Shown piece after piece: positions 7,101-38,462 of a stretch of DNA of 39,383 bases. Under the pieces are notes generated by a model. It had not been told where the DNA came from. It saw nothing but the letters and a program-made list of their open reading frames with translations, and ran no database searches. Each line of letters begins with the position of its first letter. Positions within the stretch are counted from its first letter, which is position 1. This DNA is from Ignavibacteriota bacterium. GTDB lineage: Bacteria; Bacteroidota; Ignavibacteria; Tepidaquicellales; Tepidaquicellaceae. The stretch spans positions 1 to 39,383 of the forward strand of contig JAGQWH010000015.1 in NCBI GenBank assembly GCA_020437545.1, given 5' to 3'. A program made the position numbers and the translations under genes.

Positions 7101-8175
7101 CTCCCTGTCCCGTCGAATAAGAATAATAAAAAACTTCTTTTGCTTTATTTAACTTTGGATCGGGAAGGTAACCAATTTTGACTCTGTAATTTCGCCAGTC
7201 TTTAATTTCTTTTTCGGAGATCACAACCGAAGCAAATGCATCACCGGACTCATTGATTTTTTCAGCCCACGATTTGACTGTCGGATGCTCATTATAAAAA
7301 ATTTCAATTTTTTCTGTGACGCCGTAATCAGAATAATAATAGCTCATAACTGATTCTTTTTCTTCATTATGAATAAGTATCTCGGAATTTCTAAGGTCGT
7401 TAAATCCAAGAGTTTTAAGTTCTTCAAAAATTGTTTCACTTATTCCGCTTAGCTGTTCCGGTTTGTTTATACTCATCGCCTGAGCTCTGACACGCTCAAG
7501 AGATGCCTCGATTTTAGCTTCCAAAGCCTGTGTCTCTGCCAAAGTCACATCTGAATATTTTCCATACGCTAAGTCAAATACATTTTTGAAACGTTTGAGA
7601 ATTGATTTTTGTTCTTTTGAGATTTTTTCAAAACATGATATCCCGATCGCTGCAGTTCCCACTGAATAAAAATGATAATAAAGCACTTTGGCTTTATTCA
7701 ATCTCGGATCATCTTTCTCGCCATAGTTTTTCCTGAATTTCTTCCATTCCTTCAGATCATCTATGGTAAAATATGTTTCTGAATAAACATTGCGTTTTTT
7801 TCTAACCTGCTGTATCTGTTTTTTAATAACCGGATGAATGTCATAAGCGAGTTTCGTAATGCTCTTGCCGATCACATCCGAATAATCATAATTCAGGAAA
7901 GTCTCATTAGCGTCATCAAATATGTTTATCATCGTATTCCTTAATTCACTGAAACCAAGTGTAAGAAGTTCTTTAAACAAAACTTCACAAATGCTGAGTA
8001 AGTCTTCCGGTTTTTTCATACTCATTGATACATTTCGCACGCGCTCAAGTGAAGCCTCTATTTTAAGGTCTTTGTTCTTATTCTCAAGTTCTGCTGTCTT
8101 TTCAGACAGGAGATCTTCAAGTTTTTTTATCTTAGCTGAAAATTCTTTTGGCAAAGTTGTTTTACCGGTCTTCAT
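1132..8175 (-). CDS. Giant cytosolic sensor histidine kinase with eleven tandem sensor-like repeats
   Basis: 2347 residues with no signal peptide or membrane segment. A short coiled coil (1-40) leads into eleven units spaced 183-189 residues apart, each opening with a helix of the type LERVRxxxMAMxxSxEL. The openings are at residues 43, 226, 409, 592, 780, 965, 1148, 1335, 1524, 1707 and 1896 (LDRVR in the last). Each unit ends with LxRFxxVFxxxYxRFxDLxxAExQ, which runs as a helix into the next. The body of each unit looks GAF-like, but I cannot name a Pfam family. Units 1, 2 and 6 are one subtype (YDYSD, DIHP, LYYYFYS); units 3, 5 and 10 are another (IRxGxxI, HPxxxxY). The kinase occupies 2088-2347: H-box with His2108 (codon 1852-1854), N-box NLITNAFYVV, DNGNGIP, and GTGLGLSMSYDIIKAHGG. 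No receiver domain. Known relatives in Bacteroidota/Chlorobi have fewer units; eleven seems exceptional. Confidence 0.93.
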   Translation of the reverse strand: MKTGKTTLPKEFSAKIKKLEDLLSEKTAELENKNKDLKIEASLERVRNVSMSMKKPEDLLSICEVLFKELLTLGFSELRNTMINIFDDANETFLNYDYSDVIGKSITKLAYDIHPVIKKQIQQVRKKRNVYSETYFTIDDLKEWKKFRKNYGEKDDPRLNKAKVLYYHFYSVGTAAIGISCFEKISKEQKSILKRFKNVFDLAYGKYSDVTLAETQALEAKIEASLERVRAQAMSINKPEQLSGISETIFEELKTLGFNDLRNSEILIHNEEKESVMSYYYSDYGVTEKIEIFYNEHPTVKSWAEKINESGDAFASVVISEKEIKDWRNYRVKIGYLPDPKLNKAKEVFYYSYSTGQGALSISSFKPVSEDQLKVFERFKNVFGLAYRRYTDVALAEEQAKEALIELSLERVRARSMAMHNSDELVDAAIVFFNELKSLGTEAIRTGVAIVNEKDKTVEIWSSQLIEKDQNKILGIVPVNAHPFFKAYFNAWKKKEPYFYYEIKGKEVKEYYRSMSSILSYGKKKKFNERESFQTFFFPEGSLNVVSHEPLSEDECNLMIRFAKVFGQMYRRFLDLQKAEILARESQIELALERVRARTMAMHSSSELQDAAILLFEQIKELGVNTGSCGFVIWENEKKDATFRMSSQDGSFQAPFTMPHTKTFVYKKIYSAKESGKDFFELKVSGEILRKNFDYLATVQGIGEKIKGLRKTGFKFPDTMVYNCAFFKQGYLSFHTHESYPEAHEIFRRFAKVFEQTYTRFLDLQKAEMQTWEAQIEAALERVRSKAMAMHNSADLTDAAGTVFTELNKLGINPIRSGFVLLSKDSRIAKLYPATSFDNKNTVSFTGEIEFTGHPVYEKQYQSWLYKENYFPVLEGDILKSYYKILKKGLSVSYKNFPIKTKKQFGTFLPFSRGFLFTWSDKAYSEKEINILDRFKNILDLTIRRYLDLQIAEEQTREAQIEASLERLRTQAMGMRKPDELSGISEILYAELKKLGFNEMRNAMINIHNDDNKSFINYDYSDLIGKSTNYLQYDIHPLIENHINKIRSNKDAFSEIVFSGKEMEELKEFRNKVGEPDDPGIKNTSALYYYFYSIGTGSIGISTFSSISEEKVNLLKRFRNVFEFAYRRYMEVTQAEAQAKEAQIEAALERVRSRSMGMQNSEELKDVIQVVYEQFIKLNIDVEHTGFIMDYKANEDMNIWLADKNGAPFHISIPYFDSPHWNSFIEAKKKGINFFTNHHNFKEKNKFYKKLFKLIPGVPEDTVKFYLSCPGLAISTVLLDNVGLYIENFSGTPYTDEENKTLMRFGKVFQQTYTRFLDLQKSEAQAREAQIELGLERVRARAMAMQNSGELSELVDTVFKELTKLDFALSWCMINIVDEAALSNVVWGANPEIGKPPESYYMKFEDYPFHHGMMKAYQERNTSWVYKIGGEEKRIYDDYLFTDTEFRRVPENVQLQMRAMKQYIASFTFSNFGGLQTVGEEPLSEDNLDILARFGNVFDLTYTRFNDLLKAEAQARESQIEAALERVRSKSMAMHKSEQLPETAQVLFEQFELLGMTPDRMSIGIIDDKKKMIELWVTDQSGCKSNKRYSGSVEEKAFMQKMYKAWKKGEESIVVDLTGKDLKIWMDYIKDEMKLEIDEKNIKGRRVQQAAFFSHGILLITSNEPFDKEVMKLLIRFANVFNQTYTRFLDLLKAETQAKESQIEAALERVRSQTMAMNKSQDLEQVVSVIFKELDKQEIKSIRCGIGIINSKSRSVNVWVTTKTSEGFDVNLSGNESMDIHPLLQGAYTAWEKQEDYYYKLEGKDLINYYEKMSGDNFRLPETASGTDFSDLQCQYYFCTFFSAGGLFFLSEEPFSGDLIKVIKRFANAFSLAYKRFEDLKQSEARALEAIKESSLDRVRAEIASMRSTEDLNRITPLIWRELTTLEVPFFRCGVFIIHEINEQVKVHLSAPDGHSLATLDLPFNANDLTSNSVEHWRKGLVYTEHWDKEEFLNWTKTLMEEGKISDKNKYQDTSTPPESLYLHFVPFTQGMIYVGNDKPLAKEKIDLVKALANAFSIAYSRYEDFNNLEKAKQSIETTLIELKATQSQLIQSEKMASLGELTAGIAHEIQNPLNFVNNFSEVNTELIDELNEELSKGNYEDAMELAKDIKDNEEKIKHHGKRAEAIVKGMLQHSRTSSGVKEPTDINALADEYLRLAYHGLRAKNKTFNARMETDFDKSIGEINIVPQEIGRVILNLITNAFYVVTEKKKEDIKGYEPTVLVSTKKSDDKVLISVKDNGNGIPQKVMDKIFQPFFTTKPTGQGTGLGLSMSYDIIKAHGGELKVETKEGEGSEFVIELPLGKNLKN

Positions 8176-14920: not shown

Positions 14921-17275
14921 ATGGCACTAAAAGAATACAAACCGGGGACAGCTTTTCCCGGTGTAATAGGAAGGACATTTGACCAGTCTACACCTGCATG
15001 GCCAATGCCTAACCGCGCAAAAGAAGGCGCACCGAATGTTCTGTTCATCGTTCAGGATGATACAGGATTCGGACAAATGGGATGCTACGGCAGCCCGATC
15101 AAAACACCAAATATAGATGCACTTGCAAAAGAAGGTCTGCTGTTCAACAATATGCATACTACCGCATTGTGCTCTCCTACAAGATCTTGTGTACTCACAG
15201 GCAGGAATCATCATTCAAATGCAATGGCTTGTATCACCGAAGGTTCTACAGGTTATCCGGGAGCTAACGGATACATACCATTTGAAAATGGTTTTTTGTC
15301 TGAGATACTTAAAGAAAATGGTTACAATACATATGCTCTCGGAAAATGGCATTTAACACCTGCCGAACAGAATTCTGCAGCCGGACCTTATGACCGCTGG
15401 CCTCTCGGAAGAGGATTCGAAAGATATTACGGATTTCTCGGAGGCGATACTCATCAGTATTATCCTGAACTTGTATATGACAACCATCAGGTGGAACCAC
15501 CTAAAACACCTGAAGAAGGATATCATCTTACAGTAGATATAACCGATAAAGCAATGGGATTCATTGCTGACTCAAAACAAATAGCTCCGGACAAACCGTT
15601 CTTTATGTATTTCTGCCCTGGTGCCGGTCACGCTCCTCATCACGTTCCTAAAGAATGGGCTGACAAATACAAAGGTCAGTTCGATGACGGATGGGATGCA
15701 TACAGGGAAAAAGTATTTGCAAAACAAAAAGAACTTGGCATAATACCAAAAGATTCAGTTCTTTCCAGACATGATCCGGATGTTCAGCAGTGGGATTCAC
15801 TTTCTGATGACGAAAGAAAATTGTATTCAAGAATGATGGAAGTTTTTGCAGGATTCCTTGAGCATACCGATCACCAGTACGGAAGACTGTTTCAGTTCCT
15901 TAAAGATATCGGTGAATGGGACAACACACTTATCATGTTCATTTCAGACAACGGAGCAAGCGCTGAAGGCGGACCTACAGGTTCTGTTAATGAAAATAAA
16001 TTCTTCAATAATGTACCTGACAGTCTTGAGCAGAATCTCGCTGCAATAGATGACATAGGAGGACCTAAATATTATAATCATTATCCATGGGGCTGGACCT
16101 TTGCCGGTAATACTCCATTCAGAAGATGGAAACGTGAAACATACAGAGGAGGAGTGAGTGATCCGTTTATAGTTCACTGGCCAAATGGTATCAAATCCAA
16201 AGGCGAGATCCGTGAACAGTATGCACACGCAATTGACATGGTTCCGACAGTCCTTGATGCTCTTGGAATAGAAGCTCCGACTGAGATCAAAGGAACTACA
16301 CAATCACCAATTCAGGGTAACAGTTTTGCTCATGCATTCAATGACGGAAAAGCTGAAACCAAACATAAGGTTCAGTATTTTGAAATGATGGGACATCGTT
16401 CGATCTATCACGACGGATGGAGAGCGGTTTGTCCATGGCCGGGTGAATCATTCACTGAAGCGGGCATGGGATTCGGTGCGCCGATAGATGCTGCAAAACT
16501 GACAGAACTCGATGCAAATAACTGGGAGCTTTATGACCTTTCAAAAGATCCTACGGAAACAAACAACATTGCAAAAGATAACAGACCAAAGTTGATTGAA
16601 ATGGTTGCGCAGTGGTATGTGGAAGCAGGGAAATATAATGTTCTGCCGATTGACAGCAGGGGAGTCGAAAGACTTGCCGAGCCAAGACCTCAGATTGCCG
16701 GTCCAAGGACAACTTATACTTATTATCCGCTAACGCAAACTGTTCCTTCAAATGCTGCCGTGAACATTCTCAACCGCTCTCATTCTATTACTGTGGATGC
16801 TGAGATACCAAAAGGCGGAGCAGAAGGAGTATTGTTCAGTATGGGAGGATGTGACGGAGGTTACACTCTGTTTATAAAAGATAATAAACTTCAATACGGA
16901 TATAATTATGTTACTTCGGAATATTTTTATGTAAAATCCGTTGAAGATGTTCCTGAAGGACGTCATAAATTCAGATTCGAATTTGAAGTAAAAGGAAAGC
17001 CTGACTTTGCACATGGGAAAGGAACTCCGGGATCAGCGCAGCTTTATATTGATGACAAGCTGGTTGGAGACACGGAATTTCCGTATACAATACCTTTGGC
17101 ATTGGGTCTTGGTGCGGCTGCAGCAGTTGGAGCAGATCCCGGTTCACCGACCATTCCGGATTACGAACCGCCGTATGAATTTACAGGAACGATCTTTACT
17201 GCGGTAGTTGATGTCAGCGGAGATCTGATCAAAGATGATGAATCTGCATTGAAAGCGGTGATGGCTAGACAGTAG
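14921..17275 (+). CDS. Sulfatase (formylglycine-dependent, long cytosolic arylsulfatase type), copy 1
   Basis: 784 residues, no signal peptide. It hydrolyses a sulfate ester; the substrate is unknown. Metal ligands DD at 46-47 (IVQDDTGFG), the formylglycine motif CSPTR with Cys84 followed by LTGRNHH, GKWHLTP (~115-121), DNG in ISDNGASAEGG and HWPNGI are all present. The catalytic domain covers ~35-550. The last ~200 residues form a beta-rich domain (SHSITVDAEIPKGGAEGVLFSMGG... YIDDKLVG) seen in the ~780-residue AtsA/AtsD-like group. It ends in AVMARQ, as copy 2 ends in VAMARQ. No formylglycine-generating enzyme is in the window. AAAGGA precedes the ATG; a palindrome lies upstream and a hairpin terminator at 17389. 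Divergent from the SRPBCC gene. Confidence 0.93.
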   Translation: MALKEYKPGTAFPGVIGRTFDQSTPAWPMPNRAKEGAPNVLFIVQDDTGFGQMGCYGSPIKTPNIDALAKEGLLFNNMHTTALCSPTRSCVLTGRNHHSNAMACITEGSTGYPGANGYIPFENGFLSEILKENGYNTYALGKWHLTPAEQNSAAGPYDRWPLGRGFERYYGFLGGDTHQYYPELVYDNHQVEPPKTPEEGYHLTVDITDKAMGFIADSKQIAPDKPFFMYFCPGAGHAPHHVPKEWADKYKGQFDDGWDAYREKVFAKQKELGIIPKDSVLSRHDPDVQQWDSLSDDERKLYSRMMEVFAGFLEHTDHQYGRLFQFLKDIGEWDNTLIMFISDNGASAEGGPTGSVNENKFFNNVPDSLEQNLAAIDDIGGPKYYNHYPWGWTFAGNTPFRRWKRETYRGGVSDPFIVHWPNGIKSKGEIREQYAHAIDMVPTVLDALGIEAPTEIKGTTQSPIQGNSFAHAFNDGKAETKHKVQYFEMMGHRSIYHDGWRAVCPWPGESFTEAGMGFGAPIDAAKLTELDANNWELYDLSKDPTETNNIAKDNRPKLIEMVAQWYVEAGKYNVLPIDSRGVERLAEPRPQIAGPRTTYTYYPLTQTVPSNAAVNILNRSHSITVDAEIPKGGAEGVLFSMGGCDGGYTLFIKDNKLQYGYNYVTSEYFYVKSVEDVPEGRHKFRFEFEVKGKPDFAHGKGTPGSAQLYIDDKLVGDTEFPYTIPLALGLGAAAAVGADPGSPTIPDYEPPYEFTGTIFTAVVDVSGDLIKDDESALKAVMARQ

Positions 17276-17608: not shown

Positions 17609-19048
17609 CTAAACTAATTTTATTTCATTCATTTTCAAAATAATCCATTTTTTAGAAATAATAGATTTTTTCGAGAGTAAGTATTGAAGGTCATTATAAT
17701 TTTTTCGTGTAGGGCTTTGATATAATTTCAGCAATAAAGTAAAAGCTTTACAGAATTCTTTTGAATTTTGTAAGAGGAGATGTTCAGAATCACGTTCTTT
17801 TCTGAGATATTCCCTGAAGTTTTTTGCTTCGTTAAAGGATTCATCGATTTTTTTTAGTTCGAACAATATTTTAAGTTTAAGCAAAGTTACATCAGAATAT
17901 AACAAATGATTTTTCTTGCTTACCTTATTCAAATGATCAAAACTCGACTGATAATTTTTCAGGCTGAAATATAATCTTGCTCTGGCTAAGGATACATAAT
18001 CATTCCTTATTTCCTCAGGAAGACAGTCTGAATAATTATTGATAAAATTTTCTACCCATTTGTGCTTTTTTAAATTTAAACCCGTAAGGACAAAGTCGCG
18101 AAACTGATTGACAGGCAAGTTTTTACTTCTGAAGTCATTCAAAAGTCCTTCCTTTAGTTTTTTATCCATTAAAAAAAACAGCTCTTCATTTGCTCCGGGT
18201 ATTGCTTTATTTACTTTTAAAATTTTTAAATTCATCAGACATATGAAATACTTTTCTCTTTTGTCATCTGAAATATCTTTAAGCTCACGAAAAAATATCT
18301 TCCTCGCTTTAAGATAATGACTGCTGTTTTGTAAGTCAGAATAACTTAGATAAGTATAATGAAGAAATCTGATGGTGTGAAAGATCTTATCCGGAAGTTC
18401 AGATGATTCTTTGAAATACTTTATAACATTTTGAATATCCAGACTACCATAAATTTTTTCGTCCATGGTTTCCGGAATCAGAGGTTTGGATTCTCTTACA
18501 GTAATCATTTCGATCAGCTTTTCAAGAATTTCTATTATGAAAAATCCATTTCTTGTAACTGATGATTTATATAATGTCTCTAAAAATTTTTCTGAATCTG
18601 AAATTAAAACTAAATGTTTGAGATAAATATTGTCAATTTGAAACAGAGTATTGTAATCATATTTAAACAGAGTATTATTTAATATTCCGTCTTTCAGGTT
18701 CTTATATTTCTGTTCAAAGGTTAACTGTAAATCTCTTTTATCATATTCTTTGAACAATAAAAATTTATGTATGAGATCATCTGATTCAATGGATTTAAGT
18801 ATCAGAAATTCATCTGCAAGTTTATGTAGCTCGGAAAATCTGTTCCATCTCGTTACATCTGATCCGGATCCTTTTAACTTCAATTTCCCGGCTTCATTCT
18901 GTTCGATTGATGATAATATTTTATTATAATTCCTTCCATTATTGTTAACTTCATTTCCAAGGAATTTCCGGAATTCAGTCTTTTCTTTTTCTGTGAAAGA
19001 ATTATAAAGTGTTAGAAATTTTATTTTCTTTTTCTGCTGTATGTTCAA
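17609..19048 (-). CDS. Helical-repeat (TPR-like) protein of unknown function, paralog A
   Basis: 479 residues, cytosolic, Lys/Leu-rich, almost all helix. The start is a TTG at 19046-19048. It is supported by alignment of MNIQQKKKIKFLTLYNSFTEKEKTEF with the ATG-started paralog at 36247-37692 (MEVKKNNKFFTIYSSLTSQEKMEF). TPR-like pairs are visible near ~345-400 (RNDYVSLARARLYFSLKNYQSSFDHLNKV, then LLKLKILFELKKIDESFNEA). Both paralogs end in a W-I/L-x-x-K-x-x-E segment. I recognise no named family. Each paralog lies on the minus strand near a sulfatase gene, so a role in that locus, perhaps as a scaffold or regulator, is possible but unproven. Confidence 0.8.
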   Translation of the reverse strand: MNIQQKKKIKFLTLYNSFTEKEKTEFRKFLGNEVNNNGRNYNKILSSIEQNEAGKLKLKGSGSDVTRWNRFSELHKLADEFLILKSIESDDLIHKFLLFKEYDKRDLQLTFEQKYKNLKDGILNNTLFKYDYNTLFQIDNIYLKHLVLISDSEKFLETLYKSSVTRNGFFIIEILEKLIEMITVRESKPLIPETMDEKIYGSLDIQNVIKYFKESSELPDKIFHTIRFLHYTYLSYSDLQNSSHYLKARKIFFRELKDISDDKREKYFICLMNLKILKVNKAIPGANEELFFLMDKKLKEGLLNDFRSKNLPVNQFRDFVLTGLNLKKHKWVENFINNYSDCLPEEIRNDYVSLARARLYFSLKNYQSSFDHLNKVSKKNHLLYSDVTLLKLKILFELKKIDESFNEAKNFREYLRKERDSEHLLLQNSKEFCKAFTLLLKLYQSPTRKNYNDLQYLLSKKSIISKKWIILKMNEIKLV

Positions 19049-19327: not shown

Positions 19328-22081
19328 ATGAGTGATTCTTTAAAAGATTTCCGGTCAGTAATAGAAGAAGCTTATCTGTACAGCTTTCCGATGATTGTAA
19401 ATTACAAAGTAATACTTGATTACAATATAAATAAAGATTCGGGACAATACAAATCGCCAATAAATCAGATAGCAAATGAAGCGCGGGTGTATACACCTGC
19501 TGATACATCCATTGTAACTCCAAACAGCGACACTCCATATTCTATGGTACAGATCGATCTTCGATCGGAACCAATGGTGATCTCAGTTCCGGAAATGGAA
19601 AAGGAAAGATACTATGATATACAGTTTGTTGATATGTACACAAATAATTATGCCTATGCCGGCAGCCGTACAACCGGTAACGGAGCAGGAAGTTTTCTTC
19701 TCGCCGGTCCGGACTGGAACGGTGAAATACCGGCCGGAATATCCAAAGTTTACAGATGCGAAACTCAGTTCAGTTTTGTAATATTCAGGACACAGTTATT
19801 TAATCCGGATGACATGGATAATGTCAGGAAAATTCAGGCGGGTTATAAACTGCAGCCTTTATCAGAATTTTCAAATACTCCGGCTCCGGTAAAAGCTCCT
19901 GAAATTGAATGGATTCCGTTTACTAAAAATGCATTTACTACTGACTTTCCGGTTTTTTTGAATTTCATACTTCAGTTTTGTCCGACTACCGGAACAGCTG
20001 CAGCAGAGATTCCGCTGAGAGAAGAGTTCAGCAGTGCAGGTATAGGAGCAGGTATGGCATTTGATTTTAACTCTCTGTCCGATGAGCAAAAAGATGATTT
20101 CACAAAGGCATTACAATCTGCTACTGCCAAAATTGATTATGCTGCAGACCATGTCGGAAATGTTGTAAACGGCTGGCAGATCGGAACTGCAACAGGAGAC
20201 AGGGAAAAATATAACGGCAACTGGGCGCTGAGAGCTGCAGCTGCTAAATTAGGAATCTATGGTAATAATGCTGAAGAAGCAGTTTATCCTTTTACAAGAT
20301 GCGATATTGACGGCGTACCGCTTGACGGTAGCAGAACAAATTACAGATTAACTTTTAAAAAAGGTCAGTTGCCTCCGGTAAATGCATTCTGGTCTATTAC
20401 AATTTATGATGGTGAAACTCAGCTTTTAATTGATAATCCCATTAACAGATATCTGATCAATTCTCCTATGCTGTCAGGATTGATAAAAAATGATGATGGA
20501 TCGATTACTATTTATATTCAGAAAGATTCACCCGGTAAAGATAAAGAATCAAACTGGTTACCTGCTCCTGATGGTCCTGTTTTTCTTGTAATGAGATTAT
20601 ACTGGCCCAAGACAGAACAGCCTTCTGTTTATCCTTTAGGTAATGGAACGTGGCAGCCGCCCGGAATCATTCCTGTTCAAAGCAATTATTCCCTCGGAGT
20701 AAAACGCTTTGGAGATAAATCAGTAGAGCTGATTGTGAGAACTGACGAAAGATATGGTCATGATGATCTGTTTCAGGGTCCAAGGGGCTGGGGATACTGG
20801 AATTATCTTGAGTATCCGAAACCTATACAAAATCCCAATCTCTGGCCAGAGATGCAGTCAACTTATTTTAAAATAGATCTAAAATTACCAAAAGGTGCCG
20901 GCATTATATTCAAAGGTACTTATCCACACTGCCGGTATTTTCAAATTGCATTATACAAAGCTCAAAATAATACCTTTGTGTCTACAGGTGAAGCTTTTGC
21001 CGGTGATGAGATTGAATCTGATCCGGGTTCGGAAAATCCTTTTGTAGTTGGAGCAAACAGACTAACGGAAAACAGAGAATTTACACTTGCTATTATTGCT
21101 GATGACAGACCTTCAGATAAAAATATGCAAAAACCAAATACTCTTTATGCGGGGACCACGGGAGATGCAATAGAATGTTTTGTAAGAATCTATCTTAATG
21201 ACAACGGTTTTGACGGGGCCGGATTAAGACCAGCATCATCTTCTCACGAAGGTACGGGATTGCCTAAGTATACAGGATTTCTTGAAGATGGTACCAGGCT
21301 TTCAGCTTCTGAGGTTGTTGAAAAATTTATGAATAGTATTCCCGTTGATACCAAGCAACCGTTTACTGCTGATCAATGGGTAAATATGGTTATTTCAAAA
21401 GACAACGATCCTTCACTTAAACCGGAGACTTCTCCTGCCAGGAATCCGCCTGTCTGGGAAAAATACTGGAATATCAATTATTCAATAATCGGTGCATTTA
21501 AATCACCTGAAGATCGCGCGAAGATCCCCTATGCCGGAGCAATGGATGGCGGCGGTGATCCAACTACACAGTATATGCTGACTTTGTTATCACGAAAATT
21601 CGGAACTGTATATGTTATGAAAGGAAAAATGCCTGAATTTCCGGATACTTTCGCCGGCAACAGCGGGAGAGGTCTTGAAATTATGCCGGAATCACAAACA
21701 CAATACTGGTCAATAGTCAGTTGTGAAGCAGCTCCGTCAGGACAAATTTATGACGGACTTTGCGACATGCAGATACCTTTGGATAAGGACAGAAATTATA
21801 CCATAGTTTTCAGCAGAAAAGAAGACCGTCCTTCAAATGCTACAATTGAAAACGGAATTGCCTGGCTTGAATGGAGTCCGAAAGGAGAAGGTCTTGATGA
21901 CCCGCGAAACAGAACTGACTTTGGAATGCTGATGATAAGAATAATGGCAAACAATCCTGAATGGAAAGAAAGACCTGATTTAATTACTAAACCCGGAATG
22001 GAAGAGTCTGTGATGGGACCGTATTATCCTGTTGGAGAATATACCAGTAAAGAGGATTTTGAGGCTGATGATATTAAGTAG
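19328..22081 (+). CDS. DUF1254/DUF1214 protein fused to a ~490-residue beta-rich C-terminal region
   Basis: 917 residues, no signal peptide. DUF1254 covers ~12-200 (EAYLYSFPMIVNYK, then TPNSDTPYSMVQIDLRSEPMVISVPE, YYDIQFVDMYTNNYAYAG). DUF1214 covers ~310-428 (DGVPLDGSRTNYRLTFKKGQLPPVNAFWSITIYD, then VMRLYWPK). Proteins with only these two domains end near here at about 430-460 residues. This one continues for ~490 more, with two related beta-rich segments: ~515-620 (GTYPHCRYFQIALY ... REFTLAIIADDRPS) and ~745-855 (ESQTQYWSIVSCE ... RNYTIVFSRKEDRPS). The biochemical role of DUF1254/1214 is unknown. It is first in a plus-strand run of six genes ending at the terminator at 28689, and is followed by a TATTGAG array. 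Confidence 0.88.
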   Translation: MSDSLKDFRSVIEEAYLYSFPMIVNYKVILDYNINKDSGQYKSPINQIANEARVYTPADTSIVTPNSDTPYSMVQIDLRSEPMVISVPEMEKERYYDIQFVDMYTNNYAYAGSRTTGNGAGSFLLAGPDWNGEIPAGISKVYRCETQFSFVIFRTQLFNPDDMDNVRKIQAGYKLQPLSEFSNTPAPVKAPEIEWIPFTKNAFTTDFPVFLNFILQFCPTTGTAAAEIPLREEFSSAGIGAGMAFDFNSLSDEQKDDFTKALQSATAKIDYAADHVGNVVNGWQIGTATGDREKYNGNWALRAAAAKLGIYGNNAEEAVYPFTRCDIDGVPLDGSRTNYRLTFKKGQLPPVNAFWSITIYDGETQLLIDNPINRYLINSPMLSGLIKNDDGSITIYIQKDSPGKDKESNWLPAPDGPVFLVMRLYWPKTEQPSVYPLGNGTWQPPGIIPVQSNYSLGVKRFGDKSVELIVRTDERYGHDDLFQGPRGWGYWNYLEYPKPIQNPNLWPEMQSTYFKIDLKLPKGAGIIFKGTYPHCRYFQIALYKAQNNTFVSTGEAFAGDEIESDPGSENPFVVGANRLTENREFTLAIIADDRPSDKNMQKPNTLYAGTTGDAIECFVRIYLNDNGFDGAGLRPASSSHEGTGLPKYTGFLEDGTRLSASEVVEKFMNSIPVDTKQPFTADQWVNMVISKDNDPSLKPETSPARNPPVWEKYWNINYSIIGAFKSPEDRAKIPYAGAMDGGGDPTTQYMLTLLSRKFGTVYVMKGKMPEFPDTFAGNSGRGLEIMPESQTQYWSIVSCEAAPSGQIYDGLCDMQIPLDKDRNYTIVFSRKEDRPSNATIENGIAWLEWSPKGEGLDDPRNRTDFGMLMIRIMANNPEWKERPDLITKPGMEESVMGPYYPVGEYTSKEDFEADDIK

Positions 22082-22272: not shown

Positions 22273-23784
22273 ATGGAAAAGAAAATTCCCAAACCAACAA
22301 AGAATGAAATTGCCTGTAATGGTCCTATTCCTGGAGATGTTTCGTTATATGAGAAGGAATTTGAAGCATCACAGAAATTAAGTACTCCGGGATATTATAA
22401 ATCATTAAATTCAGCTGAAATAGCGGACGGACAGCGCAGCGGAATATTCCCTAATGCGTCTTTTACCGGCTCATTTACAGAAGAGAATCAGGTCTTTGCA
22501 TACAGAAGCGAAGACATATATGAAGATACTGCTTATATAATAAACCGCGAGCCGGGTGAAATTTATATAGTAGGCGGTGAATCACCTCCAATGAAAGGTA
22601 AACTACCCGCAGGACCTTATATAGCGAAAGCAGATGCAGCAACAGGGAAACAGATTTGGCGGACTTATCTGGATAACGGAAATATTTCCGGACGCTGGAT
22701 AGCAAATGCAAATCTTAACATTCACGAAAACGGTTACATAATTTTTGCCTGGGCAAACCAGTTAGTAAAAGTTGATCCTGATACAGGGAGGGTATTAAAG
22801 CAAAATTCCATTCCCACAGGGGATACGCCAATAATCGATGCAAATTTCAAACATGTTACATTTGCTCCTGACGGAACTGTGATCCTGAAAGATCAGACAC
22901 GTCCTACAGGTTGTACTTATCAGGGAACAATGGCGGTTGTAAAAGGGAAGATGGAAGGATTGAAACAAACCAATTCACATCTTGTTGCTGCTGATCCGGA
23001 CACACTCGAAATACTCGATCATATTTCATTACCGGAACCTGCTACAGCTCCTCATATTGTAACAATGTTTGAAGGGAAAATAGCAATATATATGGGTGTT
23101 GACAGCGGAGCTTTGCGTTGTTTCTGGGATGGAAAAAAGAAGAAGTTAACTTTGGATCCCTCATGGGTTATTAAACCATTGAAGGAAGGTCAGTCTGCTT
23201 GTGATGCTCCGAGTATCTTAGGGGACTGGATTATTCTTCAGACAAACGGGATTGGCAGTGATACTGTAGCATCAAGTGTCGTAGCAGTCAGTCAGAAAGA
23301 TCCTTCGAAAATGAAAGTAATATTTCCTTTCGGAGATCTGAAAAAAGGTCACTGGAGTTTTGCGCCGCCAAAAGCTACTGCTGATCCGGACAATAATTTA
23401 ATATATTCAGCTGATATGGGAATGAAAAAAGTTGCATGTATCAGCATCGATCCGAAAAGCGGGGAGATGGAAGTAAAGTATACTGTTGATGATATAACAA
23501 ATACTTTTCAGCCTTTGATCGGACCAAAAGATAAAAGAGTTCTTATACTTTCAAACATAAAACAGGATATCAAGATTGAACCTGTAAAGATCGCATTGTT
23601 TACAGCCAAATATAAAGAACAGGTAACCTGGAGAGATGCAAACACAGGCAAGATAATCGCTGAATCGGATTTCTTTGAACCGCTTACAATTAATTCATTG
23701 ATTGTACCGGGATTCGGAGGAAGATTTTATTTCCCGACTGCAAATGGGTTTATCATACTGCAGGTAGTTCCAAAGAGAAAATGA
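22273..23784 (+). CDS. Beta-propeller-like (quinoprotein/PQQ-repeat-like) protein, copy A
   Basis: 503 residues without a signal peptide. Repeating beta blades with D-x-x-T/S-G turns are visible: KADAATGKQIWRTYLDNG (~117-134), KVDPDTGRVLKQNSI (~165-179), AADPDTLEILDHISLPEP (~236-253), SIDPKSGEMEVKY (~396-408), WRDANTGKIIAESDF (~453-467). The A/D-xx-TGK-x-x-W pattern is that of PQQ-like repeats. The usual Trp-docking set and a haem site of true quinoprotein dehydrogenases are not evident, and lack of export argues against a PQQ dehydrogenase. It is followed by a closely related copy (23934-25445). Confidence 0.78.
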   Translation: MEKKIPKPTKNEIACNGPIPGDVSLYEKEFEASQKLSTPGYYKSLNSAEIADGQRSGIFPNASFTGSFTEENQVFAYRSEDIYEDTAYIINREPGEIYIVGGESPPMKGKLPAGPYIAKADAATGKQIWRTYLDNGNISGRWIANANLNIHENGYIIFAWANQLVKVDPDTGRVLKQNSIPTGDTPIIDANFKHVTFAPDGTVILKDQTRPTGCTYQGTMAVVKGKMEGLKQTNSHLVAADPDTLEILDHISLPEPATAPHIVTMFEGKIAIYMGVDSGALRCFWDGKKKKLTLDPSWVIKPLKEGQSACDAPSILGDWIILQTNGIGSDTVASSVVAVSQKDPSKMKVIFPFGDLKKGHWSFAPPKATADPDNNLIYSADMGMKKVACISIDPKSGEMEVKYTVDDITNTFQPLIGPKDKRVLILSNIKQDIKIEPVKIALFTAKYKEQVTWRDANTGKIIAESDFFEPLTINSLIVPGFGGRFYFPTANGFIILQVVPKRK

Positions 23785-23933: not shown

Positions 23934-25445
23934 ATGGATATTAAAATTCCACCACCAACATCTAATGAAATTGCCGCAAACGGACCTATTCCCGGTGATG
24001 TTTCATTATACAGGAAAGAACTTGAGATCGCTCACAGTCTTAAAACACCCGGTTACTATTCAACATTAAACGGCGCTGAAATAGCAGATGCTGAAAGAAG
24101 CGGGTTATTTCCGGCAGCTTCATTCACAGGTTCCTTTGACGGACCAAATCAGGTATATGCTTACAGAGCTGAAACTACTTATTTAGGAGCCAGCTATATT
24201 AATAACAGAAAGCCGGGTGAGATTTACATTATAGGCGGAGATGTACCTCCGCTTATGGGTGCAATGCCGGCAGGTCCATTTATAGCAAAAGCTGATGCAG
24301 CTTCCGGTAAAGAGATCTGGAGAACTTATCTGGACAACGGAAATGTATCGGGTACATGGATAGCTAATGTAAATCTTAATATCATGCCAAATGGAAATAT
24401 TCCGATCTCCTGGGCTGATAATATAGTATTGATCGACGGAGATACAGGTGAAATATTAAAACACAATAAATTACCAAACGGCGATACTCCGGCTAAAGAT
24501 GTAAACTACAAACATCTTACTATTGCACCTGATGGAACACTCATTGTAAAAGATCAAACCAGACCTATAGGATCAAATTTACAGGGAACTATGGCTATTA
24601 TTAAAGGCATAGGTGATGGTTTAAAGCAGACGAATTCTCATATGGCAGCGGTTGATCCGGAAACATTGGAAGTCCTGGATGACATTGCCTTACCGGAACC
24701 GGCAAGCGTTCCGCATACCATTACAATGTACAATGATAAGATTGCTATATATGTAGGTGTAAACAGCGGTGGTTTACGGTATTTCTGGGATCCTGTAAAG
24801 AAAAAACTTTCTCAGGATATGAACTGGATAGCTAAGCCCATTAAAGAAGGACAAACAACTCCGGCGGCAATCAGTATCATTGGTGACTGGCTGGGATTTC
24901 AGACTAACGGTGCAGGAAGCATGACAATTGCATCTACTATTGCTGTTGTGCATAAAGATGATCCAAACAGAATGAATACAATCTTCCCGTTTGGTGATCT
25001 TCAGAAAGGTCAGTGGAGTTTCTGCCCTCCCAAACCCATGACCGATCCGGAAAACAACATGATCTATTCGACTGATATGGGAATGGGTAAAGTTGCCGGA
25101 ATAGAACTCGATCAGAAGACAGGCGAGCTAACTCCAAAATTTGTACTTGATAAAATGACAAATACATTTCAGCCGCTGATCGGACCTAAAGATAAACGCA
25201 TTATTATATTTTCAAACATAAAATTAAATGATCCTGACATGCCTGTACAGCAGGCAGTTTTCTCAGGCGCTTATACTGAACAGGTAACATGGTGTGATTC
25301 ATTAACCGGAAAGACATTAGCGGAGTCGGATTTCTTTGAGCCACTGACAATTAATTCACTTATCGTACCGGGATTCGGAGGAAGATTTTATTTTCCTACA
25401 GCTATAGGATTTCTGATATTACAGGTACTGCCCAAAAGGGATTGA
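23934..25445 (+). CDS. Beta-propeller-like (quinoprotein/PQQ-repeat-like) protein, copy B
   Basis: 503 residues, same length and colinear with copy A from the first residues (KIPPPTSNEIAANGPIPGDVSLYRKE) to the last (GFGGRFYFPTAIGFLILQVLPKRD). Blade turns are DAASGKEIWRTYLDNG, DGDTGEILKHNKLPNGDTP, DPETLEVLDDIALPEPAS and DSLTGKTLAESDF. No signal peptide. It arose by tandem duplication that included the spacer; the two proteins have since diverged clearly, most in the middle and least at the ends. Retention of two copies suggests partner or substrate specialisation, or one heteromeric complex. The stop TGA is followed by TGAGTATC, a decayed heptamer. Confidence 0.78.
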   Translation: MDIKIPPPTSNEIAANGPIPGDVSLYRKELEIAHSLKTPGYYSTLNGAEIADAERSGLFPAASFTGSFDGPNQVYAYRAETTYLGASYINNRKPGEIYIIGGDVPPLMGAMPAGPFIAKADAASGKEIWRTYLDNGNVSGTWIANVNLNIMPNGNIPISWADNIVLIDGDTGEILKHNKLPNGDTPAKDVNYKHLTIAPDGTLIVKDQTRPIGSNLQGTMAIIKGIGDGLKQTNSHMAAVDPETLEVLDDIALPEPASVPHTITMYNDKIAIYVGVNSGGLRYFWDPVKKKLSQDMNWIAKPIKEGQTTPAAISIIGDWLGFQTNGAGSMTIASTIAVVHKDDPNRMNTIFPFGDLQKGQWSFCPPKPMTDPENNMIYSTDMGMGKVAGIELDQKTGELTPKFVLDKMTNTFQPLIGPKDKRIIIFSNIKLNDPDMPVQQAVFSGAYTEQVTWCDSLTGKTLAESDFFEPLTINSLIVPGFGGRFYFPTAIGFLILQVLPKRD

Positions 25446-25529: not shown

Positions 25530-26069
25530 ATGGAAAAAAAATTATTTAACTCAATTCTTATATTGTTATGTTTCGTTTTGATTTCATGTGGCAAGGATGA
25601 AGAAAAAACTAATACTACTACTAATAATAATACCAGTTCTTCATCAGACAAGATACAATTATTGTACGTGCAGACTGCTGAGGATATCACTGTGGACTCT
25701 GTATCTAAAACTTTTCGTCTTGTAAATGTAAATCAACAGACACTATACTTTTCAGATCGCCCTGATAGAATTGCCGGTCATGAAAAGTTAGAGGATTATC
25801 TGAATAACTGGACTTCGCAGGGTGGGAAAGATAGTTTTGCCGAAGATCCTCCAAATGCATCACTTTCGGTTTATCAATCCGGAAAATCTGAGAATTCGGT
25901 TTCAGTAGTTGAGATAACCAATCCGGTCATTGATGGTAAAGATCTGGTTTACAATTACAAAGTAATAAGCGGTACAATGCCGGTTTCCGGCGGTTTAACT
26001 TCGCTTTTTATAGATTGTGTTATAGCCCCGCGCGGAGTCGGGTTAGGTCACAGAGGACCCGGAATTTAG
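25530..26069 (+). CDS. Lipoprotein of a widespread unknown family (LYFSDRPDR motif)
   Basis: 179 residues. A signal peptide with lipobox LISC (Cys20) is followed by a Thr/Asn/Ser linker, so it is a lipid-anchored envelope protein. The body carries DSVSKTFRLVNVNQQTLYFSDRPDRIAGH (~56-84), DSFAEDPPNASLSV (~101-114), VEITNPVIDGKDLVYNYKVISGTMP and a final LFIDCVIAPRG. I know this pattern from unassigned bacterial secreted proteins; function unknown. It is fourth in the DUF1254 operon, and a stem-loop overlaps its stop. It may link the cytosolic proteins before it with the outer-membrane proteins after it. Confidence 0.78.
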   Translation: MEKKLFNSILILLCFVLISCGKDEEKTNTTTNNNTSSSSDKIQLLYVQTAEDITVDSVSKTFRLVNVNQQTLYFSDRPDRIAGHEKLEDYLNNWTSQGGKDSFAEDPPNASLSVYQSGKSENSVSVVEITNPVIDGKDLVYNYKVISGTMPVSGGLTSLFIDCVIAPRGVGLGHRGPGI

Positions 26070-30842: not shown

Positions 30843-33218
30843 ATGAGTAAATCACATGAATTACATCGTGCCCATCTTCCGATTCCAAGCAAAAAATTCA
30901 AAGGTTACATAGCATATGACGGTAAGGATCCGGATTCAAAGTTTCCTCCGATAAAATCAGTTCACCCACCTGACGGAGCTCCTAATGTCTTATTAATTCT
31001 TATAGATGATGCGGGTTTCGGATCATCAAGCGCTTTTGGGGGTCCGTGTTATACACCTAATGCTGAGAAACTGGCTGCGGGAGGATTAAAACTCAACCGC
31101 TTTCATACAACAGCTCTTTGTTCACCAACACGTCAGGCGTTACTTACCGGCCGTAATCACCACTCTGCCGGAATGGGATGCATAACTGAAGTTGCAACAG
31201 GCGCTCCGGGATACTCTTCTGTCCTTCCCAATACTATGTCACCTCTTGCAAAGACTCTTAAACTTAACGGATATTCCACTGCACAATTTGGTAAATGTCA
31301 CGAAGTTCCTGTATGGGAAACAAGTCCGGCAGGTCCTTTCAATGCATGGCCATCAGGAGGCGGTGGTTTTGAATATTTTTACGGATTCATAGGAGGCGAA
31401 GCAAATCAATGGTATCCGACACTTTATGAAGGAACTGTTCCGGTCGAACCGGATAAAACTCCCGAAGAAGGATATCATCTTGTTGAAGATATGACTAATA
31501 AAGCGATCGCATGGGCAGGTCAGCAAAAAGCTCTTATGAGCGATAAGCCATTCTTTATGTATTTTGCTCCCGGCGCAACTCACGCTCCGCACCATGTTCC
31601 GAAAGAATGGGCTGATAAATACAAAGGAAAATTTGACGCGGGCTGGGATAAGCTCCGTGAAGAGACTTTTGCAAGACAGTTAAAATTAGGAGTTATTCCT
31701 CCTGACAGTAAATTAACGGAACGTCCTAAGGAAATCCCCGCATGGGATGATATGCCGGAAGACATGAAGCCGGTTTTAAGAAGACAGATGGAAGTGTATG
31801 CCGGTTTTATGGAATATACTGATCATCACGTTGGACGTCTTCTTGATTCACTTCAGAAAATAAATATACTAGATGATACACTGGTATATTACATAATAGG
31901 AGACAACGGCGCATCTGCTGAAGGTACTCTTAACGGCACATATAATGAGATGCTGAACTTTAACGGACTTGCCGCTCTGGAAACTCCTGAATTTCTCAAT
32001 GCAAGAATAGATAAACTTGGCGGACCTGATTCTTATAATCACTATGCTGTAGGTTGGGCTCATGCATTGAATACTCCATATCAGTGGACAAAACAGGTTG
32101 CATCACACTGGGGAGGAACAAGGAACGGTACGATCATTCACTGGCCGAATTTCATAAAAGGTAAAGGTGAATTGCGGACACAGTTCAGTCACGTAATTGA
32201 CGTAGCTCCTACTATACTTGAAGCTGCGGGTATTCCCGAGCCGATCTCGGTTGACGGAGTGCAGCAGTCTCCTATTGAAGGAGTAAGTATATTAAGTACA
32301 TTCAATGATGCAAATGCACCTGAACTGCGTGAGACTCAGTATTTTGAAATGTTCGGTAACAGAGGAATCTATCATAAAGGATGGACAGCTGTTACTAAAC
32401 ATAAAACACCATGGATTTTGATTGGTGAAAAGACACCTGCTTTTGACGATGATGTATGGGAATTGTATGATACCAATAAAGACTGGACTCAGGCAAATGA
32501 TCTCTCAAAAGATATGCCTGAGAAGCTTCATGAACTTCAGAGATTATGGCTCATGGAAGCAGTTCGATATAACGTATTACCTCTTGATGATGATATTGCT
32601 AAAAAAATGAATCCTGATACTGCAGGAAGACCTGTGCTTATCAGAGGAAATTCACAGATCCTTTTCGGAGGAATGGGAAGATTATCCGAGAATTGCGTGA
32701 TCAGTATAAAGAACAAGTCTCACTCTGTAACTGCTGAAATAGTGGTTCCGGAAAAAGACGCAGAAGGAGTTATAATTGCTCAGGGTGCGAACATAGGTGG
32801 CTGGAGTCTTTATGCGAAAGACGGTAAACTAAAATACTGTTACAATCTCGGAGGAATAAATTACTATTATGTAGAATCTGCTAACAAAATACCTTCAGGA
32901 CAGCATCAGGTGCGAATGGAATTCACTTATGCCGGCGGAGGGCTTGGTAAAGGCGGTAAAGTAGCATTGTTTATCGACGGTAAGCAAGACGGAGAGGGCG
33001 ATGTAGACATGACACAGTCAATGGTTTTCTCAGCAGATGATGGTTGTGATGTAGGTGAAGACACCGGAGCTCCCGTTTCACAGGATTACGGTCCGTTGGG
33101 AAATGGTTTCAATGGAGAGGTAAAAGGTGTTCAGATAGCAATTGCGGATGATGCAAATAATTCGGATCACCTTGTTGATCCCGAGGATGCATTGCGTGTA
33201 GCCATGGCAAGACAGTAA
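30843..33218 (+). CDS. Sulfatase (formylglycine-dependent, long cytosolic arylsulfatase type), copy 2
   Basis: 791 residues, no signal peptide. Metal ligands DD at 55-56 (LIDDAGFG), formylglycine motif CSPTR with Cys93, LTGRNHH, GKCHEVP (where copy 1 has GKWHLTP), THAPHHVPKEWADKYKGKFD, GDNGASAEGTLNG and HWPNFI are in place. The C-terminal ~190-residue beta domain (SHSVTAEIVVPEKDAEGVIIAQG ... FIDGKQDGEG) and the end VAMARQ match copy 1. The GKxHxVP form, shared with copy 3 (GKNHNVP), separates copies 2 and 3 from copy 1 and suggests a different substrate. It is a single transcription unit with a strong terminator at 33250. Confidence 0.93.
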   Translation: MSKSHELHRAHLPIPSKKFKGYIAYDGKDPDSKFPPIKSVHPPDGAPNVLLILIDDAGFGSSSAFGGPCYTPNAEKLAAGGLKLNRFHTTALCSPTRQALLTGRNHHSAGMGCITEVATGAPGYSSVLPNTMSPLAKTLKLNGYSTAQFGKCHEVPVWETSPAGPFNAWPSGGGGFEYFYGFIGGEANQWYPTLYEGTVPVEPDKTPEEGYHLVEDMTNKAIAWAGQQKALMSDKPFFMYFAPGATHAPHHVPKEWADKYKGKFDAGWDKLREETFARQLKLGVIPPDSKLTERPKEIPAWDDMPEDMKPVLRRQMEVYAGFMEYTDHHVGRLLDSLQKINILDDTLVYYIIGDNGASAEGTLNGTYNEMLNFNGLAALETPEFLNARIDKLGGPDSYNHYAVGWAHALNTPYQWTKQVASHWGGTRNGTIIHWPNFIKGKGELRTQFSHVIDVAPTILEAAGIPEPISVDGVQQSPIEGVSILSTFNDANAPELRETQYFEMFGNRGIYHKGWTAVTKHKTPWILIGEKTPAFDDDVWELYDTNKDWTQANDLSKDMPEKLHELQRLWLMEAVRYNVLPLDDDIAKKMNPDTAGRPVLIRGNSQILFGGMGRLSENCVISIKNKSHSVTAEIVVPEKDAEGVIIAQGANIGGWSLYAKDGKLKYCYNLGGINYYYVESANKIPSGQHQVRMEFTYAGGGLGKGGKVALFIDGKQDGEGDVDMTQSMVFSADDGCDVGEDTGAPVSQDYGPLGNGFNGEVKGVQIAIADDANNSDHLVDPEDALRVAMARQ

Positions 33219-34186: not shown

Positions 34187-35632
34187 TTATTTAAAACTTC
34201 TCTTTGATATCAGAATCCTCTGTTTGCTGGTTTCAGTCGGAGCTGAAGGAAATTTAGGAAGTTTGATCTTTTCAGGCTTTTCAGGATCACCATCACAACT
34301 TCCACCTGCCAGTGCATTAATTGCGCACTGCCACCATTCCATTGTTTTAGAAGTATTCTTATCTATCCATTTTTGTTTATCTTTTATATTTCCCGGATCG
34401 AGTGCAGCTTTCATTCCGTCTTTAAAATGCGAATCAGCATTAAAACTTCCATCCTGAATATCAGACTGTCCGCTTTCACCCTGAGAAGATTTCTTTTTTT
34501 TCTTTAATGCGGAATATACTTTTTTAATGTTTGTTTCCTCCGATTTTATATTGTTAATTCTCGCATTGTATTCTGCGTAAGTAGGAGTGTTTATATTATT
34601 ATCAGTTTCAACTGAAACGCCTTTTCCTGTGCTTCCGGTTATTGGTTTTCCGTCTCCTCTGATCATCCATCCGGCATTTTCAAGCACCCTTTGTTCACCG
34701 TCCGGACCGTTAAGAATAATAGATTTGAATCTCCAGATCGGAAGATCAGGATTTCCGCTTGTCGAAAGAATGTCTCTTCCCGGTTCATCATCATATACTA
34801 CTTCAACGCTGCCTTCACCTTCGCCTATTTTTATGATACGGTTTTTGGAATCCCTTAAAGCGTTTACCGGTGTAGCATAGAATACATCTACAGAGGTTTT
34901 CGGATATGACAACGGAGTTGCTCTGATATAGAAATTATTTCCAATGTAAGCCCATCTTGTATCATTTATCTCTTCTTTGAGATCCAGCTCGACTCCGGCA
35001 TTTGTTACTGCAAATTTTTCTATGTCCTGATAAGCCAGTGAAGGATTTGTAAGTTTACTTCCAAGTTCTTTATAGAATTTAGCAAGATCGACAAGATCAC
35101 CCGGAAGCAGATCGGACAGATCGCTTACATCGACACTAAGTCTTGTTATATCAGAGGCAGTGAGCAAGGGTTTTACTTTTATCTGCAGATCATTCGGCAG
35201 ATCGGTAAACTTTGTCCCGGCTTCTATTGCCCATAGAAGAAGCTGTATATCTCTTTGTTCAATTTCAGGATGATCGTCAGATTTATCTACTATGCTTGTA
35301 ACTATATCTGCATTTTTTCCCAGAAGCGGAGCCGTTCTGTAACCTGAACCTTTTGTAGGACCGTATGTCCCAGCTTTAATGCAGAAAGACTGGAGCAGTA
35401 TTCTGTTATATCCGGGAGTCATGTTATTCCAGCTATCCGGTTCATTTGGTTCAATATATGACAGCATGTCAAGCCATTCAACCGTTGGATAAGCATCGTT
35501 TATGTCTGTAGTAATGGATTTTCCCGGAATCCACGCATCTTTGTTTCCGACTGTTTTTTTTAAAAAATCATCAATTTGAGCTGATGAGATAGTGCTCAGT
35601 AGCAGAAAGGAAATTAAAAAAAATGATTTCAT
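34187..35632 (-). CDS. Secreted protein of unknown function
   Basis: 481 residues with a clear signal peptide (MKSFFLISFLLLSTISSAQ). The N-terminal half (~45-165) has PTVEWLDMLSYIEPNEPDSWNNMTPGYNRILLQSFCIKAGTYGPTKGSGYRTAPLLG in outline and HPEIEQRDIQLLLWAIEAGTKFTDLPNDLQ. That order (polar Cys segment, P-T-x-G-x-G-Y, then a helical I-Q-x-L-L-W-A-I) recalls a family of unassigned secreted proteins in Gram-negative bacteria. The middle is beta-rich. Residues ~370-385 form a Lys-rich helix, and the end has WWQCAINALAGGSCDG with two Cys, possibly a disulfide. No catalytic motif recognised. Minus strand, convergent with the DUF1345-like gene. Confidence 0.72.
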   Translation of the reverse strand: MKSFFLISFLLLSTISSAQIDDFLKKTVGNKDAWIPGKSITTDINDAYPTVEWLDMLSYIEPNEPDSWNNMTPGYNRILLQSFCIKAGTYGPTKGSGYRTAPLLGKNADIVTSIVDKSDDHPEIEQRDIQLLLWAIEAGTKFTDLPNDLQIKVKPLLTASDITRLSVDVSDLSDLLPGDLVDLAKFYKELGSKLTNPSLAYQDIEKFAVTNAGVELDLKEEINDTRWAYIGNNFYIRATPLSYPKTSVDVFYATPVNALRDSKNRIIKIGEGEGSVEVVYDDEPGRDILSTSGNPDLPIWRFKSIILNGPDGEQRVLENAGWMIRGDGKPITGSTGKGVSVETDNNINTPTYAEYNARINNIKSEETNIKKVYSALKKKKKSSQGESGQSDIQDGSFNADSHFKDGMKAALDPGNIKDKQKWIDKNTSKTMEWWQCAINALAGGSCDGDPEKPEKIKLPKFPSAPTETSKQRILISKRSFK

Positions 35633-38335: not shown

Positions 38336-38462
38336 TTATATTTTTAAATCTTAAAATTATAATTTCAAAACCAGGATATAAAAGATCCATTCGGATTATA
38401 TTTTTTTATAATTCACAATTACATTCTATTAATCAAACCCAATACAACAGAAAGGAATTTAT

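Follow-up and report, generated by a model that had tools for sequence, protein, structure and literature searches.

The window analysed here is a stretch of 39,383 nucleotides from an Ignavibacteriota bacterium (contig JAGQWH010000015.1), whose forward strand carries a gene for a protein of 917 residues. In its N-terminal half both Pfam domains of the DUF1254/DUF1214 proteins (PF06863 and PF06742) score above the gathering threshold, and the open reading frame (ORF) runs on beyond the usual length of such proteins, which end after DUF1214. The remaining C-terminal part, here called the tail, had been picked out in a sequence-only reading as an unassigned, internally duplicated new domain fused to a family of unknown role. 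Pfam has no match after residue 428, even at an expectation value (E) of 1, and no NCBIfam, PHROG or PADLOC model matches the tail. The tail is a member of an unnamed family absent from the profile libraries searched, and probably consists of two divergent DUF1214/VPA0735-like domains in tandem rather than representing a new fold. The layout of the gene is as follows.

19328..22081, plus strand: fused protein DUF1254-DUF1214-tail, 917 aa; ORF with no signal peptide seen and five open codons ahead of the ATG
19460..19858, plus strand: DUF1254 domain, residues 45-177, with invariant last-strand Arg154; Pfam PF06863, 162.4 bits (cut-off 22.2)
20276..20611, plus strand: DUF1214 domain, residues 317-428, with invariant last-strand Arg423; Pfam PF06742, 126.6 bits (cut-off 25)
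20612..20701, plus strand: stretch common to the C-termini of tail-less DUF1254 proteins (to about residue 450), then the join; profile match, with homology to the stand-alone protein of locus L011 starting at about residue 459
20702..22078, plus strand: tail, residues 459-917, of an unnamed two-domain family; no model match, 37 members aligned
20825..21247, plus strand: tail repeat 1, residues 500-640, probably DUF1214-like, with Arg536, Arg620 and Tyr622 invariant; hhalign matches to repeat 2 and DUF1214, VIA Z 8.4-8.6 to 3u07, 3vb9 and 2p3y (low-confidence model)
21530..22012, plus strand: tail repeat 2, residues 735-895, probably DUF1254/DUF1214-like, with Arg871 invariant; hhalign matches, weak VIA Z 3.7-4.4 to 6ans, 3u07, 2p3y and 3vb9

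The extra part begins slightly further in than the position 20630 (residue ~430) given previously: residues 429-450 still match the ends of many DUF1254 proteins without a tail (profile positions 1-23), so that the extra part starts near residue 459 (nucleotide ~20702).

Occurrence of the tail and history of the fusion

Related DUF1254 loci were taken as the best 80 of 338 stretches from a scan of genome contigs with the whole protein, and all 80 were searched with profiles for the tail, the DUF1254/DUF1214 head and a propeller-like protein encoded downstream. The tail is in frame with DUF1254/DUF1214 in eight of these loci (L002-L009), forms a separate gene in L011 and is not found in the other 71. 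In each of the 71, a DUF1254 ORF extends to the last position of the profile and stops inside the piece, with at least 1.4 kb of sequence after it in 65 cases; the DUF1254/DUF1214 structures 3u07 (443 aa) and 2p3y (491 aa) also stop at DUF1214. The tail is thus not a standard part of DUF1254 proteins. The genome of the window has five DUF1254 matches, the other four of which lie in frames of 317-516 aa. Among 59 genomes comprising the window's own and its relatives, the tail occurs in one, the window's own, and DUF1254 in nine; the eight other genomes have 12 DUF1254/DUF1214 matches in frames of 446-530 aa. A further fused protein (L161), from a genome of the same phylum as that of L011, brings the fused proteins to ten, including that of the window.

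That the tail has been joined to a DUF1254 protein, as had been proposed, is supported by homologs of the tail that stand alone. The separate gene of L011, a low-coverage assembly, lies directly after a 78-codon frame matching the end of DUF1214 and begins with a signal-peptide-like leader (N-termini were judged by eye throughout; no predictor was run). A tblastn search of plasmids led to WP_024014384.1, a 459-aa protein of Pseudomonas aeruginosa plasmid pPAMH19 (E 9e-35 over 83% of the query), which in turn finds a Parabacteroides protein at E 3e-6. A profile of 13 rows (A5), the window tail among them, spans both repeats, from residue 480 to 914, without a break (E 6.6e-168). Among the 37 members with enough length for alignment, 10 carry the tail fused to DUF1254 and the other 27 do not; tail fragments with a span under 300 aa (L116, L139, and L166) were left out of this 37-row profile and of the tree built from it. 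Most of the N-termini inspected in the family look like signal peptides or lipoprotein leaders. Compared with Pfam, 24 members gave one weak match (E 0.042) and none better, and viral contigs and phages scanned for the tail contained no relative.

With profiles that include the Pseudomonas protein, the tail was found in 8 of 274 genomes from the class of a Competibacteraceae genome, 6 of 147 genomes of one order, 6 of 199 from the phylum of the L011 genome, and 7 of 198 from the phylum of the L002 genome; these samples include the seed genomes, and one genome (G521) falls in two of them. The tail is not fused to DUF1254 in 6, 6, 5, and 6 of these genomes, respectively (leaving aside G346, G854, and G344, where it is fused, and G550, which has a decayed cassette). 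A family missed by the searched profile libraries is nevertheless present in these four groups at a frequency of about 3-4% of sampled genomes, seeds included. In the window's own phylum, a narrower profile (A3) detects the tail in at least one of 296 genomes, that of the window itself, a lower bound because A3 may miss distant members. Two non-fused tail proteins (L011:8220-10385 and L159:7638-9836) have about 215 extra C-terminal residues without a Pfam match. A 930-aa frame in L135 starts with a TPP_enzyme_N match, and fusion is not claimed there.

In the 37-row tree, the ten fused tails stand on one side of a branch present in 82% of bootstrap trees (support 81/58), and their neighbours are the non-fused tails of L011 (labelled Planctomycetota) and of L159 and L160, from the sample of L011's phylum. 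Named hosts of the fused protein carry the labels Thermodesulfobacteriota, Verrucomicrobiota, Myxococcota, and various Pseudomonadota groups. One of the fused genes is that of Methylomonas lenta R-45370, on NZ_LUUI01000080.1. Since the fused tails of L002-L009 share 61-67% identity with that of the window across hosts of different phyla, they are best read as having moved by horizontal transfer; the G+C content is 40% for the window gene, 58-70% for the loci of fused relatives, and 50% for Methylomonas. The ten fused proteins probably fit a single fusion followed by transfer between phyla, a view against which the modest values of 81/58 for the fused clade have to be set.

Internal duplication and likely fold of the tail

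Sub-profiles of repeat 1 (residues 500-640) and repeat 2 (residues 735-895) match each other in hhalign at 94% (P 9e-8). Further hhalign comparisons used match columns only, with 200 column shuffles, the reversed profile, and 40 windows from four unrelated families as controls; here the two repeats match at 93% with a score of 45.6, as against a maximum of 19.7 among the shuffles and 14.0 for the reversed profile. By this profile comparison the two segments are homologous, and the internal duplication suggested earlier is well supported. Of the two motifs cited for it, the aromatic R/Q-Y-F/W strand is real, with R536-Y-F in copy 1 and Q792-Y-W-S in copy 2; in the 37-row tail alignment R536 is invariant (37/37), position 792 has R in 25 members and Q in 12, and W794 is conserved in 35. 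The other motif, a final T-x7-DRPS in both segments, holds in part: R834 and P835 of copy 2 are each found in 35 of 37 members, but copy 1 reads T-x6-DRPS, and its DRPS is particular to the window protein, being present in none of the other nine rows of alignment A1. The case for duplication is therefore based on the profile comparison and not on the T-x7-DRPS motif.

The comparison extends to the head domains. Repeat 1 scores 37.8 with DUF1214 (maximum of 200 shuffles, 20.2), and repeat 2 scores 35.1 with DUF1254 (18.4) and 29.6 with DUF1214 (19.4); the best scores with windows of unrelated families are 18.6 for repeat 1, 22.8 for repeat 2, 16.4 for DUF1214, and 25.3 for DUF1254. Across domains, the hhalign alignments pair an aromatic strand and the last-strand arginines R154, R423, R620, and R871. 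R154 and R423 are each conserved in 120 of 120 head sequences (heads of span under 350 aa being excluded from this profile), and R620, Y622, and R871 in 37 of 37 tails, with D813 in 36 of 37.

Several results weigh against this kinship. Repeat 1 and DUF1254 score 18.7, a value reached by 1 of 200 shuffles, and DUF1254 and DUF1214 score 13.0, reached by 81 of 200; neither is significant, so that the unity of the four domains hangs on chains of similarity. A whole-length comparison of profiles A7 and A8 (the latter of 17 hand-picked rows, with L017, L039, L053, and L071 removed and L056 shortened for frame errors) gives the same register of repeat 1 and DUF1214 but is weak (28.5%). Short DUF1254/DUF1214 modules (12-row profile), tried as a closer source of the tail, found no support, with a score of 25.0 versus 24.1 for the best of 100 shuffles. 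None of 24 tail-family members matches PF06742 at E 0.1. Stacking repeat 1 under repeat 2 for a deeper alignment was set aside, MAFFT having misaligned the two.

AlphaFold models, made from alignments limited to ten close sequences, are poor (mean predicted local distance difference test score 46.1 for the tail and 42.9 for repeat 2 alone), and the structure matches are therefore suggestive only. On re-alignment with VIA, the first match of the tail model is 6ans_A (Z 9.6; 7.2 Å over 223 residues), with a range across both halves. The DUF1254/DUF1214 structures follow, with 3u07_C matched in the repeat 1 region at Z 8.6 (3.0 Å over 120 residues), 3vb9_B at Z 8.4 (3.5 Å over 136), and 2p3y_A at Z 8.4 (4.4 Å over 142); in 3vb9 and 2p3y the match lies inside residues 308-483, their C-terminal part. 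For the equally low-confidence model of repeat 2 alone, VIA gives 6ans, 3u07, 2p3y, and 3vb9 at Z 3.7-4.4 and other entries at 2.5 and 2.0, the values for the C-terminal domain of 2p3y, 3vb9, and 3u07 being Z 3.7-3.8.

Foldseek also places 6ans first for the tail model (E 2.4e-8, 444 columns), and other parts of its output weigh against a DUF1214-like fold: matches to 6ans have TM-scores of 0.24-0.33, with 0.27 and 0.33 for the top hit, and a root-mean-square deviation (rmsd) of about 10-12 Å, the sensor domain of RetS (2xbz) comes second at E 4.2e-4, and neither 3u07 nor 2p3y is among the best 50 rows. Repeat 2 alone has 6ans first at E 0.19, which is not significant, with none below. By sequence, the Protein Data Bank (PDB) holds no relative of the tail at E 10, 6ans included, its matches being short or weak, and 6ans does not match the DUF1254/DUF1214 head profile. 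Structure prediction, which the sequence-only reading had proposed as a check, gives a divided answer, in which VIA but not Foldseek brings the DUF1254/DUF1214 structures to the top.

Such models could also come from a pair of unrelated beta-rich domains, of the type of RetS sensor domains, galectins, or carbohydrate-binding modules, that resemble DUF1214 by beta-sandwich geometry only. Besides its second place in Foldseek, RetS reaches Z 7.4 in VIA, 3jyb reaches 6.3, and galectins, carbohydrate-binding modules, and adhesin domains come next at about 4.6-5.8, with the galectins at no more than 5.6; the low model confidence, the absence of a Pfam match, and the short-module score hardly above chance agree with this view. 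It is nevertheless unlikely, as the profile scores with DUF1214 and DUF1254 lie far above those of 200 shuffles and 40 unrelated-family windows per profile, and as 3u07, 3vb9, and 2p3y exceed RetS by 1.0-1.2 Z and the galectins by about 3, and again lead, after 6ans, for repeat 2. What had been called a new domain is thus new as a family without a Pfam model, but profile and structure comparison favour a divergent DUF1214/VPA0735-like domain over an unrelated fold. The fold shared with DUF1214 is supported but not proven, the predicted structures supporting and not proving it; on this account some 460 unassigned residues would become two domains with an identifiable relative.

Neighbouring genes and possible function

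Three genes downstream of the fused gene recur at related loci.

22273..23784, plus strand: propeller-like protein, 503 aa, sub-threshold PQQ_2, no signal peptide seen; recurrent neighbour of the fused gene
23934..25445, plus strand: second propeller-like copy, 503 aa, 65% identical to the protein of 22273..23784
25530..26069, plus strand: probable lipoprotein, 179 aa; homologs in several fused and some tail-less DUF1254 loci

PQQ_2 matches one of the two propeller-like copies (E 1.7e-4; 21.7 bits against a cut-off of 27.6) and not the second, so neither has the above-cut-off match expected of a quinoprotein/PQQ enzyme. The propeller-like gene lies downstream of the fused gene in eight of nine testable loci (the window, L002-L006, L009, and L161), with two copies in the window and L005 and three in L003 and L006; L008, where the contig stops 0.2 kb after the fused gene, is outside this count. 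It is found in none of the 71 tail-less DUF1254 loci. In L162 a propeller-like gene comes after a tail that is not fused, and the distant member L135 has a distant relative of it (26%) nearby. Within two of the genome samples, the propeller-like gene is present in 2 of 274 genomes, each of which has the tail (one is a seed genome, the other has the decayed cassette of L116), and in 3 of 199, of which two have the tail; the p values for association (7e-4 and 2e-3) are biased in that seed genome G346 is counted, without which one partner genome is left in that class. The link is weakened by L007, which has 4.7 kb downstream of its fused gene without a propeller, by the third of the 199 genomes, which has a propeller at a contig edge and no tail match, and by most non-fused tail members, which have none in the fetched stretches. 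The cassette of L116 (9032-12658) consists of a tail fragment, propeller fragments, and a lipoprotein.

Alternatively, the tail may serve only as a spacer or stabilising element in a single lineage, unconnected with the propeller gene, and the common neighbourhood would be hitch-hiking on one transferred island. The L002-L009 tails share 61-67% identity with that of the window and probably have one origin, so that the linkage may reflect common descent, and in the fetched stretches no propeller accompanies L011, L159, L160, or most of the distant members. The multiplication of the propeller beside the fused gene, its presence after the non-fused tail of L162, and the distant relative by L135 argue the other way, and a spacer seems an improbable role.

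A still less probable role is that of an enzyme, in which invariant Arg, Asp, Trp, and Tyr residues would form an active site for a substrate handled together with neighbouring sulfatases. R536, R620, Y622, R871, and D813 are indeed conserved across very divergent members; sulfatase homologs occur in 12 of the 80 DUF1254 loci and in the window, a hint for which there is no background rate; and lipase, hydrolase, and alkyl-sulfatase genes lie beside some non-fused members. However, R620 and R871 align with R423 and R154, their counterparts in the other domains, as expected of a structural motif, the tail shows no similarity to enzyme families, and 20 scanned neighbours of non-fused members include no clearly recurring gene type. 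The chance that the long ORF is an artefact, by read-through or mis-assembly of two genes, is negligible: L011 does carry both parts in separate frames, but ten fused ORFs from separate genomes have no stop between the parts.

As to location, hydrophobic N-terminal stretches are seen in the proteins of L002-L006, L008, and L011 and in four propeller genes of fused relatives. The window's fused protein and its two propeller-like neighbours have no visible signal peptide, which speaks against an envelope role in this organism; the window copy may thus work in the cytoplasm. The fused proteins of L004 and L005, from Competibacter, have an insert after the leader that resembles a LysM domain by eye.

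Taken together, the whole protein would consist of four domains of one broad kind in a 2 + 2 arrangement. The tail would derive from a family of two-domain proteins that stand alone and seem to be exported, and would have become attached, probably in a single event, to the C-terminal end of an ordinary DUF1254/DUF1214 protein. The fusion would then have passed horizontally between phyla, in most cases together with one to three downstream genes for 503-aa propeller-like proteins. The fused protein may serve in ligand binding or docking, at the cell envelope in most relatives, with the extra domain pair as a second binding surface and the propeller as its physical partner. The account of domains and fusion is likely, if slightly less so because of the negative short-module comparison. 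Ligand binding or docking is a tentative proposal for function, and we infer the propeller partnership and the location of the fused protein. The explanation as a whole is modestly favoured. A bolder version is speculative: the tail family would be a new and widespread one of exported tandem VPA0735-like proteins, repeat 2, through its matches to both, would link DUF1254 and DUF1214 as one superfamily that arose by repeated duplication, and the four-domain fusion and its propeller would form a horizontally spread complex not found described in the papers searched.

Other features of the loci bear less directly on the tail. In 44 of 81 loci the DUF1254 profile matches at least two ORFs, counting fragments. 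A 14-locus neighbour family was set aside, since, judged by coordinates alone, its example ORF runs across the DUF1254 match on the other strand. In the window, sulfatase ORFs lie at 14921-17275 and 30843-33218 (plus strand), and an ORF at 38433-39383 (plus strand), cut by the window end, clusters with them. Two homologous proteins of about 480 aa (17609-19048 and 36247-37692, minus strand; 28% identity, E 4e-42) have no Pfam match; an ORF of the same size at 34187-35632 (minus strand) is unrelated to this pair by BLAST, and DUF2780 ORFs at 35776-36219 and 37898-38335 (plus strand) lie between or beside these opposite-strand ORFs. At 1132-8175 (minus strand) is a 2347-aa protein with a terminal HATPase_c domain, a HisKA match just under the cut-off before it, and about 2000 residues ahead of both.

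Comparison with known systems

In the parts available of the literature on DUF1254, DUF1214, VPA0735, and VPA0106 (including PMC2744874, PMC10734457, PMC6710368, PMC6299218, and PMC3751524), no functional test was found. What these parts contain is a tabulated "VPA0735-like" fold with a count of 2 (PMC2744874), an iron-responsive Caulobacter gene labelled "Phosphatidylserine decarboxylase (DUF1254)", an annotation given there with no test (PMC3751524), a mention of DUF1254 alongside putative HNH nucleases, likewise an annotation with no test (PMC6299218), and a DUF1254 gene in an expression table for Bradyrhizobium NnrR (PMC6710368).

The best Foldseek match of the whole tail, 6ans, is a putative uncharacterized protein of Burkholderia cenocepacia for which no paper was found; it differs from the tail in having 10-16% identity in structural alignments, an rmsd of 7-12 Å to the tail model, and no match by sequence. 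The P. aeruginosa protein WP_024014384.1 resembles the tail as a separate homolog with a hydrophobic N-terminus, but is 26.6% identical, lacks a DUF1254/DUF1214 match, and has nothing better than E 0.12 in Pfam. Its gene (L082) lies among DUF1302, DUF1329, YCF48-like, and MMPL transporter genes, near mercury-resistance genes, and not beside a 503-aa propeller. The neighbour gene in the window is in turn akin to PQQ_2/BamB-like propellers by its PQQ_2 match, which is below the cut-off in one copy and absent in the other.

Two Variovorax loci share the 2 + 2 arrangement, with a shorter DUF1254/DUF1214 module coming after a full one in a single frame.

L050:7656-10262: tandem DUF1254-DUF1214 frame, second module shortened, Variovorax (869 codons)
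L054:7785-10271: tandem DUF1254-DUF1214 frame, second module shortened, Variovorax (829 codons)

These frames show a precedent for a second DUF1254/DUF1214 module after a first. Unlike the window tail, their second module is recognised by Pfam, and the short-module profile matches the window tail hardly above chance. L076 was rejected as a further tandem: its two DUF1254/DUF1214 modules are in frame with a leader-like stretch between them and may be two genes run together.

The closest systems of known structure are VPA0735 (2p3y/3vb9) and VPA0106 (3u07); like them, the window protein belongs fully to the DUF1254/DUF1214 family through its N-terminal half. A likeness to the tail is suggested as well by the VIA matches of its modelled repeat 1 and the significant profile match of repeat 1 to DUF1214. 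Both VPA0735 and VPA0106 end after DUF1214, the matches reaching 466 of 491 and 417 of 443 residues, and neither has the extra 459 residues of the window protein; with its propeller-like neighbour, DUF1254/DUF1214, domains of solved structure, gain a candidate partner.

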